Below, piece after piece: positions 39,838-55,551 of a DNA stretch of 64,000 nucleotides. This DNA is from Desulfofustis limnaeus (GTDB lineage Bacteria; Desulfobacterota; Desulfobulbia; Desulfobulbales; Desulfocapsaceae), in NCBI RefSeq assembly GCF_023169885.1, contig NZ_AP025516.1:2014501-2078500 (forward strand), in the 5' to 3' direction. Every line of letters starts with the position of its first letter. The stretch's first letter is position 1. Below the pieces are notes generated by a model that did no database searches, was not told where the DNA came from, and worked only from the letters and a program-made list of their open reading frames with translations. Position numbers and translations under genes: made by a program.

Positions 39838-41723
<1,886 letters not shown>

Positions 41724-44838: not shown

Positions 44839-46506
44839 TTAGCGAACTTCGACAAACACGTCATTCTCAAAACGGCCCCGCACCTCGGTTCCGTCCGCTC
44901 GTCGCAGATAACCGCTGCCATTGCGCCGCCCATCGCTGAACTCTCCTTCATACCGGCTGCCGTCGGCGGAACGAAGGGTCCCTTCACCATGCGGCAGATC
45001 CTTGCGGAACATCCCGCGATACTCCGATCCGTCACGGTAGACCAAGGTGCCGGGGCCGTGGAAACTCCCGGCTTGAAAACGTCCTTCATAACGGCTGCCA
45101 TCGGCAAAGCCGTAGGCTCCATCGCCGTCATAGAGATCGTTCTTGAAGCCGCCCTCATAGGTGGTTCCATCCGGATAGCGAAAAACACCGCGTCCGTGAC
45201 GCTTGCCGGCCACGAACTCACCTTCATAGCGTCGGCCGTCCCGGTAATGATAGACACCTTTTCCGGAAAAGACTCCTTTTTCCAGCTCTCCCTCATACCA
45301 GTCGCCGCCGGCATAGTCGATCCGTCCCTGGCCATGCAGCAGTCCGTCCTGGACGGTGCCGCGATACCTGCTTTCGTCCGGGTACTGGAGGTCCACCGTG
45401 CCGCTCACCGGCTGGCCGCCGTCGGCGTGGACGATGAGTCCGTCGCGCACCAGCCAGGCGGGTGCTGTTTCGGGCGATTTTTCGACAACCGGCGGGAGCG
45501 TCGCCCCCGTTTCTGTTGTCGGCGGCACCGCCTCGGGATCTCCGGCCGGCCGGGAAGCCATCGTTGCTTCTGTGGTCAACAGCCGATCCTGCTCAAAACG
45601 GCCGGACTGCACCTGCCCGTCTTTGCGGACCAGCCGTCCTTCACCGTGCCTGAGACCCTGGTGAAACTGTCCTTCGTAACGACTGCCGTCCGCCGTCTCC
45701 AGGACCCCCCACCCCTCAGGCCGATCATCGGCAAAATTGCCGACGTAACGCCAGCCGTCCGGGCCCACCAACTCACCTTCTCCCTGTTTGCGTCCATCAA
45801 CGAAAGTACCGGTATAGACCCAGCCATCGCTGGTCCGCAGCACCCCGGACCCCGCGTAAAGGTCGCCGACGAATTGCCCCTCGTAGCGGTCTCCGTTGGC
45901 CACTTCCAAAACCCCCTGCCCGTTTCTGATATCGCCGACCATCTCGCCGCGATACACCGATCCGTCCGGGTACGAGCGAATCCCGACACCGCGCGGCTTA
46001 CCATCGACAAAAGGGCCGTCGTACCAGCTGCCGTCGGCATAGACCAACCGCCCCTCACCATCGATGATATTAGTGCGAAAATCTCCTTTGTATTCCCGGC
46101 CATCAGCGAGAAACAACAGGCCTTTGCCGTGGAACCGGCCATGACTGAACTCGCCCCGGTAGTGCAACCCGGTGGCGGTTTTCAACACCCCCTGTCCGTG
46201 CATCAGCCCGTTGCGAAAGGAACCTTCGTAGGTCCGCCCGTCAACTCCTTGCAGCACCCCCTGACCATGCGGTTCCCCGCCCTGAACCGCACCTTGATAG
46301 ACGGTTCCGTCGCTGTACGTCAGGGTGCCGCTGCCGTGAATTACGCCGCCGCGGAACTGTCCCTCATAGCGACGCCCATCCTCGCTTTCGTAGACACCCA
46401 CCCCGTCGACGCAATCGCCGCTGACGCAGCCGGCAACCACGAGTCGCGGAGCCAGCAACACGCACCACAGACAGATCATCGCCCCGGACAGAAGGATTTT
46501 TTTCAT
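44839..46506 (-). CDS. MORN-repeat lipoprotein or secreted protein
   Basis: 555 aa with about 20 MORN repeats (pattern G-x-Y-x-G-x-F-x-x-G-x-x-H-G-x-G-x4-D-G, period about 23 residues) in two blocks (about residues 30-310 and 370-555) joined by a Pro/Thr/Glu-rich linker without repeats. The N-terminus has Lys-Lys, a hydrophobic stretch and VVAGC, a possible lipobox with Cys27; alternatively the C-x4-C pair (CVSGDC) belongs to the first repeat and the protein is periplasmic. MORN arrays bind membranes or proteins. ATG 46506 has AGGAGG at ideal spacing. Its own terminator follows. Confidence 0.88.
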   Translation of the reverse strand: MKKILLSGAMICLWCVLLAPRLVVAGCVSGDCVDGVGVYESEDGRRYEGQFRGGVIHGSGTLTYSDGTVYQGAVQGGEPHGQGVLQGVDGRTYEGSFRNGLMHGQGVLKTATGLHYRGEFSHGRFHGKGLLFLADGREYKGDFRTNIIDGEGRLVYADGSWYDGPFVDGKPRGVGIRSYPDGSVYRGEMVGDIRNGQGVLEVANGDRYEGQFVGDLYAGSGVLRTSDGWVYTGTFVDGRKQGEGELVGPDGWRYVGNFADDRPEGWGVLETADGSRYEGQFHQGLRHGEGRLVRKDGQVQSGRFEQDRLLTTEATMASRPAGDPEAVPPTTETGATLPPVVEKSPETAPAWLVRDGLIVHADGGQPVSGTVDLQYPDESRYRGTVQDGLLHGQGRIDYAGGDWYEGELEKGVFSGKGVYHYRDGRRYEGEFVAGKRHGRGVFRYPDGTTYEGGFKNDLYDGDGAYGFADGSRYEGRFQAGSFHGPGTLVYRDGSEYRGMFRKDLPHGEGTLRSADGSRYEGEFSDGRRNGSGYLRRADGTEVRGRFENDVFVEVR

Positions 46507-46624
46507 GACAGTCACCTCCTCTCGGTCAGCAGGATGGGCACGATTTGTCGGACACCCCGGTTATTTGCCCCTGTAGGCAACAACCATTCACGGCAGCACA
46601 TTGCCCCCGTGCCTATCCGCCCGG

Positions 46625-47932: not shown

Positions 47933-48448
47933 TCAACCCTGGCGGTCGGCATCGGCGATTCGTTTCGGATACTCGAAAAATTCGAGCACGCCGCTGCCGC
48001 TATCGAGTTCACGCCACCGGTCTGTGGCAAAGGTGATCGACACCACTCCGCAGGTCGGAATCGAGCCCAGGGCGGCACCGGACAACCACTCGGCCGCATC
48101 GCTGATGGCATCGTTGTGACCGACCACCACCAACGCCTTGATCTCGTCGTCCACATCCCTGAGAACGCTCACCAGCCCTTCTCGAGAAAAAGTATACAAG
48201 GCGTCGATCAGCACCAGATCCCGCTCGCGATATCCGATCTCCTCAGCAATGGCCCGGGCCGTTTTGCGGGCCCGTCGGGCTGGGCTGGAGATGAGCAGGT
48301 CGGGCTGCACACCGGCTGCCGCCAGCCGCTTGCCAATCAGCAGCGCATCGCGTTTCCCCCGGCCGTTGAGCGGCCGGTCGAAATCGGGCCGGCCGGCATC
48401 GGCCCAGCTGGATTTTGCATGGCGAATCAGATACAACCGCTTCATCAT
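47933..48448 (-). CDS. sixA: SixA-type phosphohistidine phosphatase
   Basis: 171-aa histidine phosphatase-superfamily protein. The catalytic motif is LIRHAKSSWAD (H10), with LLISSPARRARKTARAI and VVGHNDAISDAA (second His). E. coli SixA removes phosphate from phosphohistidine proteins. Its ATG overlaps the parA stop by 4 bp (ATGA), so it is coupled to parA and CHAD upstream. Confidence 0.9.
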   Translation of the reverse strand: MMKRLYLIRHAKSSWADAGRPDFDRPLNGRGKRDALLIGKRLAAAGVQPDLLISSPARRARKTARAIAEEIGYRERDLVLIDALYTFSREGLVSVLRDVDDEIKALVVVGHNDAISDAAEWLSGAALGSIPTCGVVSITFATDRWRELDSGSGVLEFFEYPKRIADADRQG

Positions 48449-49188
48449 GCCGCTCCGCGCTGCTTGATTTCCTGCCACAGCAGGTGGTACGCCTTGAACG
48501 CCACGGACTGCTGCCCGCCTGCCCCGACCGGCTGGCGAGTGATCCCCATCTTCTCGATCTCGGCCATGAACGGCACGAAGGTCTTGAGGAACATCGGATA
48601 TCCCCCATAGGTCTTCATCAACTGCACATGCATCGACTTGCGGCGCTCGACCATGGAGAAAAAAGCCAGCACCTTACCCCGCTGGCACTCTATTTTCTTG
48701 AGCAGTTTCAACAGCTGATCCAAGGCGAGCAGGGACAAGGTGGTGGGGATGACCGGCGTCACGACGCGATCGGCAGCGGTAACGATATGCTCGGACAACA
48801 CGGTGAGGTTGGGCGGACAATCGAGCACCGCATAATCGTACTCAGCCGCCAACGGATCGAGCAGATCGGCGAGGATCTTTCTTTTCTTCGATCGTTTCTC
48901 ATCACGCAAGGCGATGTCGAGGTTGCGAAAGGAAAAATGGGCCGGCAACAGGTCGAGACCGGCATAATCGGTGGCCCGGATATGGTCCTCGAACCGGCCG
49001 CGCAGCAGGAGGGAACGGTTAAATGATTTTTTTGGTTTGATCCGGTAATAAAATGATGCAGCCCCCTGGGGATCGAGGTCACAGAGAAGCACCCGTCCTC
49101 CTTCCCGGACCGCCACATGGGCGAGATTGACCGCCGTCGCCGTCTTGCCGACCCCGCCTTTGCTGCTGTATACCGCAATGATCTTCAT
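48445..49188 (-). CDS. ParA-family ATPase
   Basis: 247-aa MinD/ParA ATPase with a deviant Walker A KGGVGKT (residues 10-16), LLCDLDPQGAAS (Walker A') and AVLDCPPN (Walker B). Such ATPases bind DNA non-specifically and move plasmids, chromosomes or protein assemblies. There is no ParB beside it. It overlaps the CHAD gene upstream and sixA downstream by 4 bp each, so its partner is probably the CHAD protein (inference). Confidence 0.93.
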   Translation of the reverse strand: MKIIAVYSSKGGVGKTATAVNLAHVAVREGGRVLLCDLDPQGAASFYYRIKPKKSFNRSLLLRGRFEDHIRATDYAGLDLLPAHFSFRNLDIALRDEKRSKKRKILADLLDPLAAEYDYAVLDCPPNLTVLSEHIVTAADRVVTPVIPTTLSLLALDQLLKLLKKIECQRGKVLAFFSMVERRKSMHVQLMKTYGGYPMFLKTFVPFMAEIEKMGITRQPVGAGGQQSVAFKAYHLLWQEIKQRGAA

Positions 49189-50765
49189 GCGGACGACGGC
49201 TCCTCCGCCTGTTGGCAGGGTGATTGAGTCAACTGCTTGATCAGTTCCACATTTTCCGCGGCGGAAAAGGCACCATAAAGGGCGGCGAAATCGGCCCGCA
49301 GCCGCCTCCGCCGGGCCGCTAGAACGGTGATCAGGCCGCCGAGGGCCGCCGCCTGGCGCACGGTTGCCCGCCCTTTTCCGGAAAGGCCGGCAAGCCGGGC
49401 GCTGAGCAGGTGTTCCTGCACCGAGAGATCGTTGAATTCGCCCAGATTATCCTGCACCTTCTTCATCTGTTTGATGAACTGATCGAGAATCTTCTCGTCG
49501 TAAAGGCTGCGGAAAAACTCGAACAGATAGCGCAATTTCTTCCCCTCGATACGGAGCCGGTGCAGCTCACTGTCGGGACTGGTGTCAGTGATTGCCGCCC
49601 CACCCCGCAGAAACGAGTTGAAACGCTTGCGAATGATACGATCGGCCAGTCGCCGGCACGGTTTTTTCAGGCTGGCGGCAAACAACTCAGAGTCTTCGCC
49701 GCCGAGGAACTCCCGCCAGTCGTTGAGCAAATTGGCGAACCTCCGGGAGGACAGGTAGCGCCGCACCAGCTTGAGTTCCTTGAGCCGGCGCTGTTCGAGT
49801 TCCTGGAAAAAACCGTCCAGACCGCTCCGTAACCCATCCGGCAGCATGTCCAGATACACCCGTTTCTCCAGCAGATAGACATCGGTGTCCCGCAGCGGTC
49901 CGGTAACCCCTCCGATCCATTTGAACTCCTTGCGGAAATGAGTCCCTTGTCGGGCTGGAATCTGCTTTTTGAGCAGACCGAGCATGGACCTGGTCCGACG
50001 GATGGCGATACGAAAATCGTGCAGAAACTCGGTATCGATATCATCATAAACGCCGGCACGATTTGTCTCCATCTCAGCCAGCAGATGCAACCCGATGGCG
50101 GCAATGGCCTGCGTGGCCCCGATCCGGCAGTCCAGGTCAACCCGAAATTTGTCGCCGTAGTCGAGCGGTGTTCTGGCGGCCCGGGCATAGACCCGGTCGG
50201 CCAGCCAGCGGCTGCTGTCCAGCTCTGTCAAGCCGACTTCGGCACAGTGGCGCACCAGTTTTTCGTAAGCACTCTGGTAGCCGCGTAATTCGGTGATCAC
50301 GACCATCGTGGACAGATCAAGGTCAGCACCGGTTGCCGCGGTCGGAACATCGCTGCGCAGCGCCAGTCGCACCACCGTTTTCCGGTCCTCGTTGAGCACC
50401 CTGAAGGAACGGATTTCACGGTGCAGGCGATTCATCGGCAGCAAAGCCCGAACATCGATCACCTCTTTGAGCAGATCGCGTGGTGCCGACGCCGGCGCAT
50501 CCCACCAGAACATCCGTTTGCCGCCAGGAGCGGCAAGCGAACCGAGCGGCTCTCCGGCAAAGGAGAAGAGGTTCAGAGCGGTCGCCGACCCGAGAGCCAG
50601 TGTTTTTCTGCGATACAGGCGCCAGTCAAAGGTGTCGTAAACAACGACAGGGCCGGTATCCCGTCGGGTCTCCTCGATGTCACCGTGACCCTTCAGGAGC
50701 TCCAACAAAGCGGGTGGTGCCATGTCAGCGGAGCAGGCCAGAACCGCCTGTCGCAGCCGTTCCAT
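49185..50765 (-). CDS. CHAD domain protein
   Basis: 526 aa. The CHAD domain spans about residues 220-500: an all-helical fold with conserved His and many basic residues (FLHDFRIAIRRTRSML, LRDTDVYLL, HRLRIEGKKLRYLFEFF, MKKVQDNLGEFNDLSVQEHLL). Residues 1-200 look like a degenerate CYTH-type barrel (VVVYDTFDWRLYRRKTLAL). CHAD domains bind inorganic polyphosphate. Its ATG is one base after the argJ stop; its stop overlaps parA. Confidence 0.92.
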   Translation of the reverse strand: MERLRQAVLACSADMAPPALLELLKGHGDIEETRRDTGPVVVYDTFDWRLYRRKTLALGSATALNLFSFAGEPLGSLAAPGGKRMFWWDAPASAPRDLLKEVIDVRALLPMNRLHREIRSFRVLNEDRKTVVRLALRSDVPTAATGADLDLSTMVVITELRGYQSAYEKLVRHCAEVGLTELDSSRWLADRVYARAARTPLDYGDKFRVDLDCRIGATQAIAAIGLHLLAEMETNRAGVYDDIDTEFLHDFRIAIRRTRSMLGLLKKQIPARQGTHFRKEFKWIGGVTGPLRDTDVYLLEKRVYLDMLPDGLRSGLDGFFQELEQRRLKELKLVRRYLSSRRFANLLNDWREFLGGEDSELFAASLKKPCRRLADRIIRKRFNSFLRGGAAITDTSPDSELHRLRIEGKKLRYLFEFFRSLYDEKILDQFIKQMKKVQDNLGEFNDLSVQEHLLSARLAGLSGKGRATVRQAAALGGLITVLAARRRRLRADFAALYGAFSAAENVELIKQLTQSPCQQAEEPSSA

Positions 50766-50766
50766 A

Positions 50767-51951
50767 TCAGGACCTGTAATCGGCGTTTATTTTCACGTAA
50801 TCAATAGAGAAATCACAGGTATGGATTTCCTCGCAGCCGTTCCCGTCCTTGAGATCGATGCAGACGGTGAATCGCTTTTCCCGCAGGATCTTGGCGGCCT
50901 CTGCCTCAACCTCGGGACCGAGGCCGAGGCCGTTGCGCACCAGCACCACATCGCCGAAGGCGATGTCCACCTGATCCTGATTGAACCGGACCCCGGAGCG
51001 CCCCATGGCGGCGATGATTCTGCCCCAGTTGGCGTCCTCGCCGAAGAAGGCGGTTTTCACCAGATTCGAGTTGGCGACGGTCCGCGCCATGATCTCGGCA
51101 TGGCCGTTTTCCTTGGCGCCGCAGACCCTGATGGTGATGCACTTGGTTGCCCCTTCACCATCCTGGACCACCTGCAGGGCCAGATCTTTGAGAATTTCTT
51201 CGAGGACGTTTTGGAACGTCTCATAGGCAGGGGTCGCGGTGTCGTCTATCCAGTCGTTGTCGGCCGTGCCGTTAGCCAGCACCAGGACCATGTCGTTGGT
51301 GCTGGTATCACCGTCGACGGTTATCCGGTTGAAGCTCTCCTGCACACCGCTTTTCAAGGCCCGGCTCAACTCCGAATAACTGATGCGGGCATCGGTCACC
51401 ACAAAGGCCAACATGGTAGCCATGTTCGGCATGATCATGCCGGAGCCCTTGGCCATGCCCATGAAACCCACCTCACGACCACCGATCATCTCCCGGCGAA
51501 AAACGGTCTTGGGCACCGTATCGGTGGTCATGATCGCCCGGGCCACCGCCTCGAAACCGTCCGGAGACAGCGCCTCGACCAGCGGTTTCAGGTTCGATCG
51601 GAAGGCCGGCATGTTCAGCTGCGCACCAATCACTCCGGTCGACGAGAGCAACACCATATCCTGCTCGATCCCCAGCTGCTCGGCCAGTAGCCGTCCCGTT
51701 TCCAGCGCATTGTTCATGCCTTCGCGCCCGGTGCAGGCGTTGGCGCACCCGCTGTTTACCAACACCGCCTGGGAACGACCCTGGCGGAGTCGTTCCATGT
51801 CGATCAGGACCGGAGCCGCCTTGACCTGAGTGGTGGTGAAGACACCGGCAGTCACCGCCGGCTCGTCGCTGAAGATGAGCCCGAGGTCGAGTCGATCCGG
51901 GTATTTGATCCCGGCGGCTACTGCAGCAAAAGAAAACCCTTTTATTATCAT
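50767..51951 (-). CDS. argJ: Bifunctional ornithine acetyltransferase/N-acetylglutamate synthase
   Basis: Arginine pathway enzyme that recycles the acetyl group from N-acetylornithine to glutamate. 394 aa from MIIKGFSFAAVAAGIKYPDR. The self-cleavage site is NMATM with the nucleophile Thr179, followed by LAFVVTDA; TGVIGAQLNM forms the oxyanion region. Upstream in-frame extension is not family-like. It heads the operon that runs into CHAD, parA and sixA. Confidence 0.96.
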   Translation of the reverse strand: MIIKGFSFAAVAAGIKYPDRLDLGLIFSDEPAVTAGVFTTTQVKAAPVLIDMERLRQGRSQAVLVNSGCANACTGREGMNNALETGRLLAEQLGIEQDMVLLSSTGVIGAQLNMPAFRSNLKPLVEALSPDGFEAVARAIMTTDTVPKTVFRREMIGGREVGFMGMAKGSGMIMPNMATMLAFVVTDARISYSELSRALKSGVQESFNRITVDGDTSTNDMVLVLANGTADNDWIDDTATPAYETFQNVLEEILKDLALQVVQDGEGATKCITIRVCGAKENGHAEIMARTVANSNLVKTAFFGEDANWGRIIAAMGRSGVRFNQDQVDIAFGDVVLVRNGLGLGPEVEAEAAKILREKRFTVCIDLKDGNGCEEIHTCDFSIDYVKINADYRS

Positions 51952-53672: not shown

Positions 53673-54404
53673 ATGAAGATTCTGCTCGTCTCCGATATCC
53701 ATGGCAATTTTCCCGCCCTCAAGGCGGTGGCCGAGTCCTTCGACTGCCGCTTCGACGTAATCGTAAACGGCGGCGATACCACCGTTTATGCACCTTTTCC
53801 CAACGAAACCATCGACTGGCTGCGCAGGTATCGGGTACCTTCCATCCTCGGCAACACCGATCGGCTGGTGGTCGGCCTGTTGCACGGACGAACGTTTAAA
53901 AAACCGGCAAAACCGGATAAGCGCATCATGTACGGCTGGACCGCCGCCGAGCTGAGCCCGAAAAACCGGGATTGGCTGTGCCGCCTGCCCGAATCGCTGA
54001 CCATTGCCTGTCCGCCGGACACACACGGCCGGCCTCGCAGCCTCGGCGTGTTTCACGGCAGCCCGGCCGATCCCGATGAGTTTCTATTCGCGTCCACACC
54101 GCTCTGCCGTTTCCGGGAGCTAGCCGGAACGGTGTCCCACGCCCTGGTCACCATCGGCCACTCTCACAGCCCATTCCACACGGTTGTCGACGAGGTCCAC
54201 TTCGTCAACCCCGGCAGCACCGGCCGCATGTTCGACGGTAATCCGGCCGCCGGCTGTGCGGTTATCGACGTGCTCCCGGAGGGTATCGACGTTCACCTGC
54301 ATCGCATCACCTATCCGGTAGCCGAGGTGATCACCGAACTTGAACGGCTGCGCCTGCCCGCCATCTACCAGGAGATGTATCGGCTGGCCCGCAAACTCAA
54401 TTAA
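53673..54404 (+). CDS. Calcineurin-like metallophosphoesterase, YfcE/MJ0936 type
   Basis: 243 aa with the complete metal-binding set: SDIHGN near the N-terminus, NGGDT, LGNTD, GVFHG and GHSHSPF. It should hydrolyse a phosphodiester or phosphomonoester; the substrate is not known. A C-terminal helix carries Arg/Lys. It is coupled to the cardiolipin synthase gene. Confidence 0.9.
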   Translation: MKILLVSDIHGNFPALKAVAESFDCRFDVIVNGGDTTVYAPFPNETIDWLRRYRVPSILGNTDRLVVGLLHGRTFKKPAKPDKRIMYGWTAAELSPKNRDWLCRLPESLTIACPPDTHGRPRSLGVFHGSPADPDEFLFASTPLCRFRELAGTVSHALVTIGHSHSPFHTVVDEVHFVNPGSTGRMFDGNPAAGCAVIDVLPEGIDVHLHRITYPVAEVITELERLRLPAIYQEMYRLARKLN

Positions 54405-54576: not shown

Positions 54577-55551
54577 ATGGCCAAAGACGATAAGAAGAAA
54601 ACGGACAACGGCGCCAAAGAGAAGAAGGAAGAACCCAACAAGAAAATAAAGAAATCGGATGGCGAGAAAGAGGAGAGCCCCAACGGCAAGATCAAGCTCC
54701 AGGAACTGACCGCCCTCAGTAACCTGGACGCCAAGAAGGAAGATGACCGGACCGCAGTCTGGGTCAAGACTTGGCATCTGGCCTACGAGATGGAGCTGCG
54801 CAAGCTCCAGGTGGAACTGATGAAACTGCAGCGTTCGATGAAGGCCACCGGGGCCCGGGTCCTGCTCATTTTCGAAGGCCGGGATGCGGCCGGCAAAGGC
54901 GGTACCATCAAGCGTTTCATCGCTCACCTCAACCCGCGCAACACGCGGGTGGTGGCCCTGGTCAAGCCCAACGAAACGGAATCGACGCAATGGTATTTCC
55001 AGCGCTACATCGCCCAGCTGCCGTCGGCCGGGGAGATGGTCTTCTTCGACCGCAGCTGGTACAACCGGGCCATGGTGGAGCCGGTCATGGGATTCTGCAC
55101 CGACGAGCAGAACAAGCGGTTTCTCAAGGACGTGCCGCTCCTCGAGGAATTACTGGTCAAGGACGGCATCAAGCTGTTCAAATTTTACTTCTCGGTCTCC
55201 AAGGACGTGCAGAAAGAGCGGTTCGAGGCACGCAAGCAGGATATCTTGAAGCAGTACAAGCTGTCGCCGGTGGACAACCTGGCCCAGAAATACTGGGATC
55301 AATACTCGTTGCGCAAATTTCAGATGCTGCAGGAAACCAACCGGACCATCGCCCCATGGACGATCATCCGCTCGGACAACAAGAAGCTGGCCCGGCTCAA
55401 CTGCATGAAGCACGTGCTCAGCGCGCTGGAGTATGAAGACAAACTGCCCGCCGAGGAGCTGGTGGTCGATCCGGCCATTGTCGTGTCCGGCATCGACGAG
55501 CTGAAACACATGGAGGACAACCTGATGCGGCCGGATAAATTGTTCGGGTAA
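54577..55551 (+). CDS. ppk2: Polyphosphate kinase 2
   Basis: 324-aa PPK2-family kinase using polyphosphate to phosphorylate nucleotides (or the reverse). Residues 1-60 are Lys/Glu-rich and probably disordered. Walker [12 protein letters not shown] (residues 99-109), a lid region [11 protein letters not shown], Walker [20 protein letters not shown]. The motif layout fits the short class I PPK2. It ends 6 bp before the convergent secA stop. With the CHAD gene 3.8 kb away this is a second polyphosphate-linked gene in the region. Confidence 0.95.

Follow-up and report, generated by a model that had tools for sequence, protein, structure and literature searches.

The 64,000-nucleotide stretch of the Desulfofustis limnaeus genome analyzed here (the window; contig NZ_AP025516.1, positions 2,014,501 to 2,078,500) carries a gene for a CHAD protein directly followed by one for a ParA-type ATPase. 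Conserved sequence, structural models and analogy suggest, with confidence a little above even, that the two proteins form a dedicated pair, adaptor and ATPase, that acts on polyphosphate granules, presumably in their positioning or sharing out. In the proposed mechanism CHAD would coat the granule, its catalytically dead tunnel domain (K129 and R161-G162-Y163) would dock on R49, K51, R71 and D74 of ParA, and CHAD-stimulated, ATP-dependent cycles of ParA would position granules or share them out, as McdA and McdB do with carboxysomes. An evenly balanced chance is given to the wider proposal, in which the ParA/MinD family counts polyphosphate granules among its cargo classes, the adaptor is a dead tunnel-fold enzyme fused to CHAD, the contact patches are revealed by mutual decay, and the module extends across many phyla on a scaffold that is maybe not the nucleoid. 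If true, this two-gene module would offer an answer, in many groups, to how bacteria place and inherit polyphosphate granules; it would also add a new cargo to the ParA/MinD family, extend the role of CHAD beyond sticking to granules and supply a function for the dead tunnel domain. The model could be tested by a handful of point changes in the two predicted contact patches.

The initial annotation of the window had set conservation of gene order as its check, and the CHAD-ParA order is kept far beyond close relatives. With a profile of 15 CHAD proteins run against public genomes, ParA adjoins CHAD at 75 of the 80 loci taken as the best of a longer match list; a few of these loci share an assembly, so that they are not 80 independent genomes, and many of the records are metagenome bins whose labels may err. 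By record title they include Desulfobacterota, Calditrichota, KSB1, Latescibacterota, Gemmatimonadota, Chloroflexi, Dadabacteria, Poribacteria, Verrucomicrobiota, Gammaproteobacteria and others. The pair is found in the isolates Desulfopila aestuarii, Desulfogranum japonicum, Cerasicoccus maritimus and C. frondis, as well as in the cable bacterium Electrothrix (L023). Among the five loci with no adjoining ParA, three have a contig that stops some 130 to 520 bases past CHAD, and two have room and no ParA; two of the five genomes, both Methylococcales (L094 and L096), encode this type of ParA at another place (E about 1e-109), and the top-scoring ParA of each of the remaining three stands at just E 1e-32 to 1e-35. 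Closer to the host, 14 of 28 near genomes (the host's included) have a CHAD match, and ParA stands directly beside all 16 of the CHAD places found. Start codons being assigned by rule, 30 of 74 measured pairs overlap, 27 of them by four bases. The CHAD-ParA core pair is old.

ParA accompanies the long, two-domain CHAD, since 9 of 11 CHAD reading frames of at least 506 amino acids adjoin ParA, versus a ParA match in none of 15 CHADs of at most 425 amino acids (a 3.6 kb locus each); these 26 are all the genomes with any CHAD in a set of 247 from the phylum. In the host order (257 genomes; limits of E 1e-45 for ParA and E 1e-30 for CHAD), ParA is present in 139 and CHAD in 135, with both in 127, ParA alone in 12 and CHAD alone in 8. 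A draw of 395 genomes from the phylum gave ParA in 22 and a long CHAD in 24, and the two occur together in 18 versus about 1.3 expected by chance; ParA is alone in 4 and a long CHAD in 6 (G041, G251, G277, G282, G388, G413), and six further CHAD matches are short. The distance matrices of CHAD and ParA correlate over 66 pairs (r 0.76, the best of 2000 shuffles being 0.15), which could be explained by common descent alone.

The loss of one partner tends to be accompanied by a localized decay of the other. ParA from 14 genomes with no long CHAD (12 of the host order, and G063 and G271 of the phylum, G271 having a short CHAD) was compared with 74 CHAD-linked ParAs over the 53 columns that reach at least 93% conservation among the linked sequences; the column-depletion statistics treat sequences as independent, and these sequences are related. 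Lysine or arginine occupies column 71 in 74 of 74 linked sequences versus 2 of 14 CHAD-less ones and column 51 in 73 of 74 versus 2 of 14, D74 is found in 74 of 74 versus 5 of 14, and R49 in 74 of 74 versus 6 of 14. Across the remaining 49 columns, 654 of 686 cells are kept in the CHAD-less set, and at least two of the four residues are lost in 13 of the 14 genomes while the ATPase core is kept. In eight CHAD-less genomes (G006, G512, G513, G514, G517, G519, G525, G563) ParA comes immediately after argJ, as though CHAD had been excised. Left out of the test were G362, with a contig end 110 bases from its ParA, G569 and G614, whose contigs break off about 310-340 bases from CHAD on the side expected to hold ParA, and G282, in which the region is absent.

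The mirror comparison set 8 long CHADs from ParA-less genomes against 79 linked ones (L092, L094 and L096 being excluded from the latter) over 69 conserved columns. Depletion is strongest at four of these: column 163 is aromatic in 79 of 79 linked versus 2 of 8 ParA-less proteins, K129 is kept in 79 of 79 versus 3 of 7, R161 in 79 of 79 versus 4 of 8, and N125 in 74 of 79 versus 2 of 7, all four columns being located in the tunnel domain. With 163 and 129 set aside, the 67 columns left over retain 422 of 471 cells in the ParA-less set, the six polyphosphate-binding residues are retained in all seven ParA-less CHADs aligned there, and both G413 and G388, aligned after the count, lack K129 and Y163. 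In the CHAD model the strand 130-141 comes after K129, and R161-Y163 come after the strand 154-159; as these strands are neighbors in order, the residues likely form one patch. Because the patches of ParA and CHAD each tend to change upon loss of the partner, docking of ParA on the dead tunnel domain is suggested.

The four ParA residues align to chain positions 51, 53, 76 and 79 of 8RAY, the structure of M. xanthus ParA (PMC12462528), and flank in sequence the M. xanthus residues Y81 and E82 (chain positions 62 and 63, with D60 = 41 as the offset), which in the available part of that report accept ParB's activating arginine. The CHAD-tracking residues would therefore lie near the expected partner contact, and CHAD may be read as the cargo adaptor of this ParA.

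With the four columns omitted from the tree, the patch switches between intact and lost at least five times, four of the changes being among close relatives only; the count is seven with the outgroup and one linked ParA carrying Q51, and five without those two. Judged from this tree, patch loss is not a single inherited event. In one genus CHAD stands away from ParA in four genomes, of which G526 has both patches intact and G508, G522 and G524 have both damaged (at least one of CHAD 129 and 163, and at least two of the ParA four). The ParA copy of G548 that has no neighboring CHAD keeps R49 and has lost K51, R71 and D74, and the second ParA copies of G550 and G554, which lie beside PPK1, keep all four. 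Other ParA relatives were also viewed: no CHAD match was found in the fetched stretches of Pontibacter, Marinobacter and Sphingomonas, nor in that of Halomonas as far as the record start, and all four patch residues are gone in Pontibacter and Marinobacter and at least two in Sphingomonas. A Thiodictyon CHAD with no ParA on its plasmid carries K129Q and Y163H.

The CHAD protein itself was modeled with AlphaFold at a mean pLDDT of 93.9 from an alignment of 76 sequences. Residues 203-517 match the C. tepidum CHAD structure 6qv7 (VIA Z 35.8, root-mean-square deviation (rmsd) 1.8, 310 residues aligned, 37% identity), and a profile search also finds the C. tepidum protein (E 1e-101). According to the available text on that protein, alanine at H253, R256, R260, R296 or R418/Y419 weakens polyphosphate binding, and the crystal contains a polyphosphate chain (PMC6537752). 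The equivalent central-cavity residues, assigned by position in aligned motifs (H249, R252, R256, R292, R412 and Y413 for C. tepidum H253, R256, R260, R296, R418 and Y419), are invariant in 76 of 76 sequences. On these sequence and model comparisons, the domain groups with the C. tepidum CHAD crystallized with polyphosphate, and polyphosphate binding is predicted.

At the N-terminus, residues 3-196 of the CHAD protein match the tunnel-fold structures 6yp4 (VIA Z 12.9, rmsd 3.4, 176 aligned) and 5a68 (Z 12.6). ExExK is the catalytic motif of tunnel-fold enzymes; it is absent from the CHAD protein of the window, and within the first 70 residues the pattern occurs in only 2 of 76 sequences, at residues 23 and 33 and off the first strand. 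The tunnel domain is therefore not classed as an enzyme. YgiF (5a60) is matched over both domains with a Z of 18.6 and an rmsd of 19.5, a combination from which the two domains are probably set at a different angle in the model. A short, basic, ParB-like peptide at the N-terminus of CHAD was considered and rejected, as the N-termini vary across the alignment and hold no general motif.

The ParA protein was modeled at a pLDDT of 92.2, with a final helix at its C-terminus. K10 and K15 of the KGGVGKT motif, signature lysine included, are found in 69 of 69 sequences, as are D37, D39 and Q41, so that the deviant Walker residues are intact. The best Foldseek matches are the ParA/Soj structures 8ray and 6iub, a profile search likewise places ParA/Soj nearest, and McdA structures are among the structural matches.

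Several results weigh against the granule-positioning pair proposed above. The available text on Caulobacter ParA gives R195 and R224 as two DNA-binding arginines, describes such determinants as variable, and has MipZ binding DNA without them (PMC7229837). R195 aligns with R183 of this ParA, which is arginine in 61 of 69 sequences. Position 210, which aligns with Caulobacter R224 and M. xanthus R238, is not arginine in 60 of 69 (D in 32, E in 16, Q in 12), and the window has glutamate, the very change (R238E) that abolishes DNA binding of M. xanthus ParA in the available part of PMC12462528. Because of this residue the scaffold may be something other than the nucleoid, which is not to be assumed; the positioning proposal is weaker for it, and an assembly role for ParA correspondingly stronger. 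In addition, 12 of the 139 ParA-bearing genomes of the host order have no long CHAD and keep the core residues of ParA, several of these genomes being incomplete. As ParA stays conserved after CHAD loss, it has another client or task in CHAD-less genomes, and the simplest one-partner model is weakened since ParA outlives CHAD in some of them. Individual genomes also depart from the pattern of decay: G518 retains the full ParA patch with no CHAD found, G277 retains the CHAD patch without ParA, and L092 retains it with no such ParA found in its bin.

Of the alternatives, an assembly or regulatory role is a possible though less probable explanation. ParA would in that case serve the polyphosphate machinery in the manner of BcsQ in cellulose synthesis, controlling with CHAD the loading of PPK, granule nucleation or chain release, and no granule would be moved. 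The frequent location of the genes near PPK1 or PPK2, five BcsQ chains at Foldseek ranks 16-21, the replacement of the usual DNA-binding arginine, in the window by the residue that abolishes DNA binding in M. xanthus, and the case of L200, where a ParA with no CHAD is retained about 4 kb away from a pair of PPK2 genes, are all consistent with such a role. However, by profile and by Foldseek the closest structures are ParA/Soj partition ATPases, and the Walker residues, the signature lysine included, are intact throughout. Co-regulation within a phosphate-metabolism operon, with no contact between CHAD and ParA, is improbable; it would account for the 6 of 24 long CHADs of the phylum that lack such a ParA, but not readily for losses that center on four ParA columns and on CHAD 129 and 161-163 while most other conserved cells of both proteins are kept.

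It is very improbable that ParA is a plasmid or chromosome partition ATPase located here by chance. ParA does score 93.9 bits on the NCBIfam model ParA_partition, under the cut-off of 180, and CHAD-ParA pairs occur on plasmids too; yet on these plasmids, in all six Paracoccus records, CHAD by coordinates again stands beside this ParA. In ParABS systems ParB lies beside ParA, whereas no ParB was found among the genes around the CHAD-ParA locus put to family searches, in accord with the earlier remark that parB is missing at the locus. The host genome, one 4.2 Mb contig, encodes a Soj-type ParA adjoining ParB (PF02195 E 1.8e-31; L137) elsewhere; this is one of its 10 AAA_31 matches, 8 of which exceed the cut-off. 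The same genome has one CHAD match and one PPK1 match.

The granule-positioning pair also draws on the company that its genes keep. At 35 of 80 loci a PPK1 or PPK2 gene is found in the fetched flanks, where chance would give roughly 1% (about three such genes per 4 Mb genome). In the window the PPK2 gene starts 3.8 kb from the CHAD start on the opposite strand, as initially annotated, and the head-to-tail order argJ-CHAD-parA-sixA is likewise borne out by coordinates, with a single base between the argJ stop and the CHAD start and 4-base ATGA overlaps at CHAD/parA and parA/sixA-like. A neighbor census covered 28 of 32 loci picked by title, none titled desulfo-bacteria, taking at most three genes on each side and excluding those longer than 900 amino acids; its 143 genes were led by PPK1 and PLD-like (11 each), CYTH and His_Phos_1 (6 each), and PPK2, Ppx-GppA, TPR and NUDIX (4 each), the PLD-like matches being most likely the same proteins as the PPK1 matches.

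The other two operon genes fare differently. As argJ is present at only 18 of 80 loci, it is not part of the module, contrary to the four-gene unit first proposed; both it and the sixA-like gene are local neighbors. The phosphohistidine step once assigned to SixA is likewise not upheld: the protein scores 53 bits on TIGR00249, below the SixA equivalog cut-off of 74.5, for which reason SixA-like is the better name (the other names first given agree with domain searches), and such a gene lies directly 3' of ParA (within 80 bases or overlapping) at 20 of 80 loci and anywhere in the flanks at 34. What stands of the original idea, in sequence terms, is a putative polyphosphate-binding CHAD as the probable adaptor of a dedicated ParA, backed by conserved order, polyphosphate-enzyme neighbors and partner-tracking residues, with SixA and argJ outside the core. 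The SixA-like, NUDIX, CYTH and Ppx neighbors look like accessory hydrolases of phosphate chains or nucleotides. On the one Paracoccus plasmid viewed, separate CYTH and NUDIX genes follow CHAD-ParA, and in L201 (110-2276) ParA is followed by a CYTH protein and then a NUDIX-His_Phos_1 fusion, from which SixA-like enzymes may act on nucleoside polyphosphates. Metallophos_2 proteins like that of the window are again neighbors of CHAD, and of a pair of PPK2 genes, in L134 and L196.

Table 1. Position, strand and supporting evidence of features in the window
Feature	Position	Strand	Basis
argJ	51951-50767	minus	domain search
CHAD protein, 526 aa, putative polyphosphate-binding cargo adaptor	50765-49185	minus	PF05235 E 2.5e-58
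N-terminal triphosphate-tunnel (CYTH/TTM) fold, residues 1-204, ExExK lost	50154-50765	minus	structure match
CHAD K129 to R161-G162-Y163, predicted ParA-docking patch in tunnel domain	50277-50381	minus	top-ranked columns lost in ParA-less genomes
CHAD domain, residues 207-516, with H249 R252 R256 R292 R412 Y413	49218-50147	minus	aligned motifs and structure
ParA-type ATPase, 247 aa, CHAD partner	49188-48445	minus	PF13614 E 1.6e-38
ParA R49, K51, R71, D74, predicted CHAD-recognition patch	48967-49044	minus	four most depleted of 53 conserved columns
SixA-like histidine-phosphatase-superfamily protein, 171 aa, accessory operon gene	48448-47933	minus	PF00300 (His_Phos_1) E 1.3e-14
Calcineurin-like phosphoesterase, recurrent CHAD/PPK2 neighbor	53673-54404	plus	PF12850 E 3.5e-17
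PPK2 polyphosphate kinase	54577-55551	plus	TIGR03707 354 bits vs cut-off 301.8; PPK2 E 2.8e-91

Among known systems, a close parallel is found in McdA/McdB and the ParA/MinD cargo family at large. McdA/McdB likewise places a ParA-type ATPase gene beside that of a putative cargo-binding adaptor and serves a body that is not DNA; here the cargo would be polyphosphate and the adaptor a tunnel-fold and CHAD protein, and ParA is structurally nearer Soj and of uncertain DNA binding. The C. tepidum CHAD phosin (6qv7, 6qva) has in common with the CHAD protein its fold, its long-CHAD class and the six central-cavity residues, and a ParA partner is not treated in the available text of PMC6537752. E. coli YgiF, a TTM-CHAD inorganic triphosphatase, has the same two-domain architecture, but the TTM domain of the window protein is without the catalytic ExExK. 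AlgP of P. aeruginosa spaces polyphosphate granules, which is the role proposed here; it is, however, a histone-like DNA tether, and no ATPase is named for it in the available portions of PMC9239181 and PMC13052382. A ppk-parA-CHAD cluster has already been drawn for Acidithiobacillus, where, as far as the available text of PMC10892726 and PMC6416229 goes, parA figures as a gene for plasmid or chromosome partition with no link to granule positioning, and the CYTH domain joined to CHAD is interpreted as a cyclase; that ParA is likened to the present one by gene order alone.

A literature search, which left subscription papers and preprints mostly uncovered and met some sources only in part, found printed CHAD-parA adjacency only for Acidithiobacillus and no published ParA for polyphosphate positioning. 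In a 2023 Nat Commun article on multiple ParA/MinD ATPases, polyphosphate and CHAD are absent from the main text (PMC10241942), and in the available part of a 2025 review AlgP is the sole polyphosphate entry and the use of energy in polyphosphate positioning remains to be seen (PMC13052382). The partner-loss patches in ParA and CHAD are new here.

Further observations concern ParAs and CHADs in other settings. On the Marinobacter nauticus plasmid pMAQU02 (L149, 6001-6747), a sister ParA of 39% identity with none of the four patch residues lies two genes from phbB (acetoacetyl-CoA reductase) and is perhaps a related ATPase for another storage granule. In G063 (L131, 7572-9007), the neighbor of a CHAD-less sister ParA is a PAS-domain protein in which a coiled coil is likely, which suggests that other adaptors exist for this ParA branch. 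In two genomes (L236, L237) a second ParA with an intact patch adjoins PPK1 with no CHAD between. Some host-order genomes, G005, G404 and G448 for example, have CHAD frames with single in-frame stops, representing pseudogenes or sequencing errors, and a genuine CHAD-ParA fusion was discounted, the one apparent fused frame crossing unread bases. Elsewhere in the window, a group II intron reverse transcriptase/maturase is encoded at 39909-41309 (RVT_1 E 8.4e-38, GIIM E 1.2e-20) and a MORN-repeat protein at 44839-46515 (E 9.6e-87).

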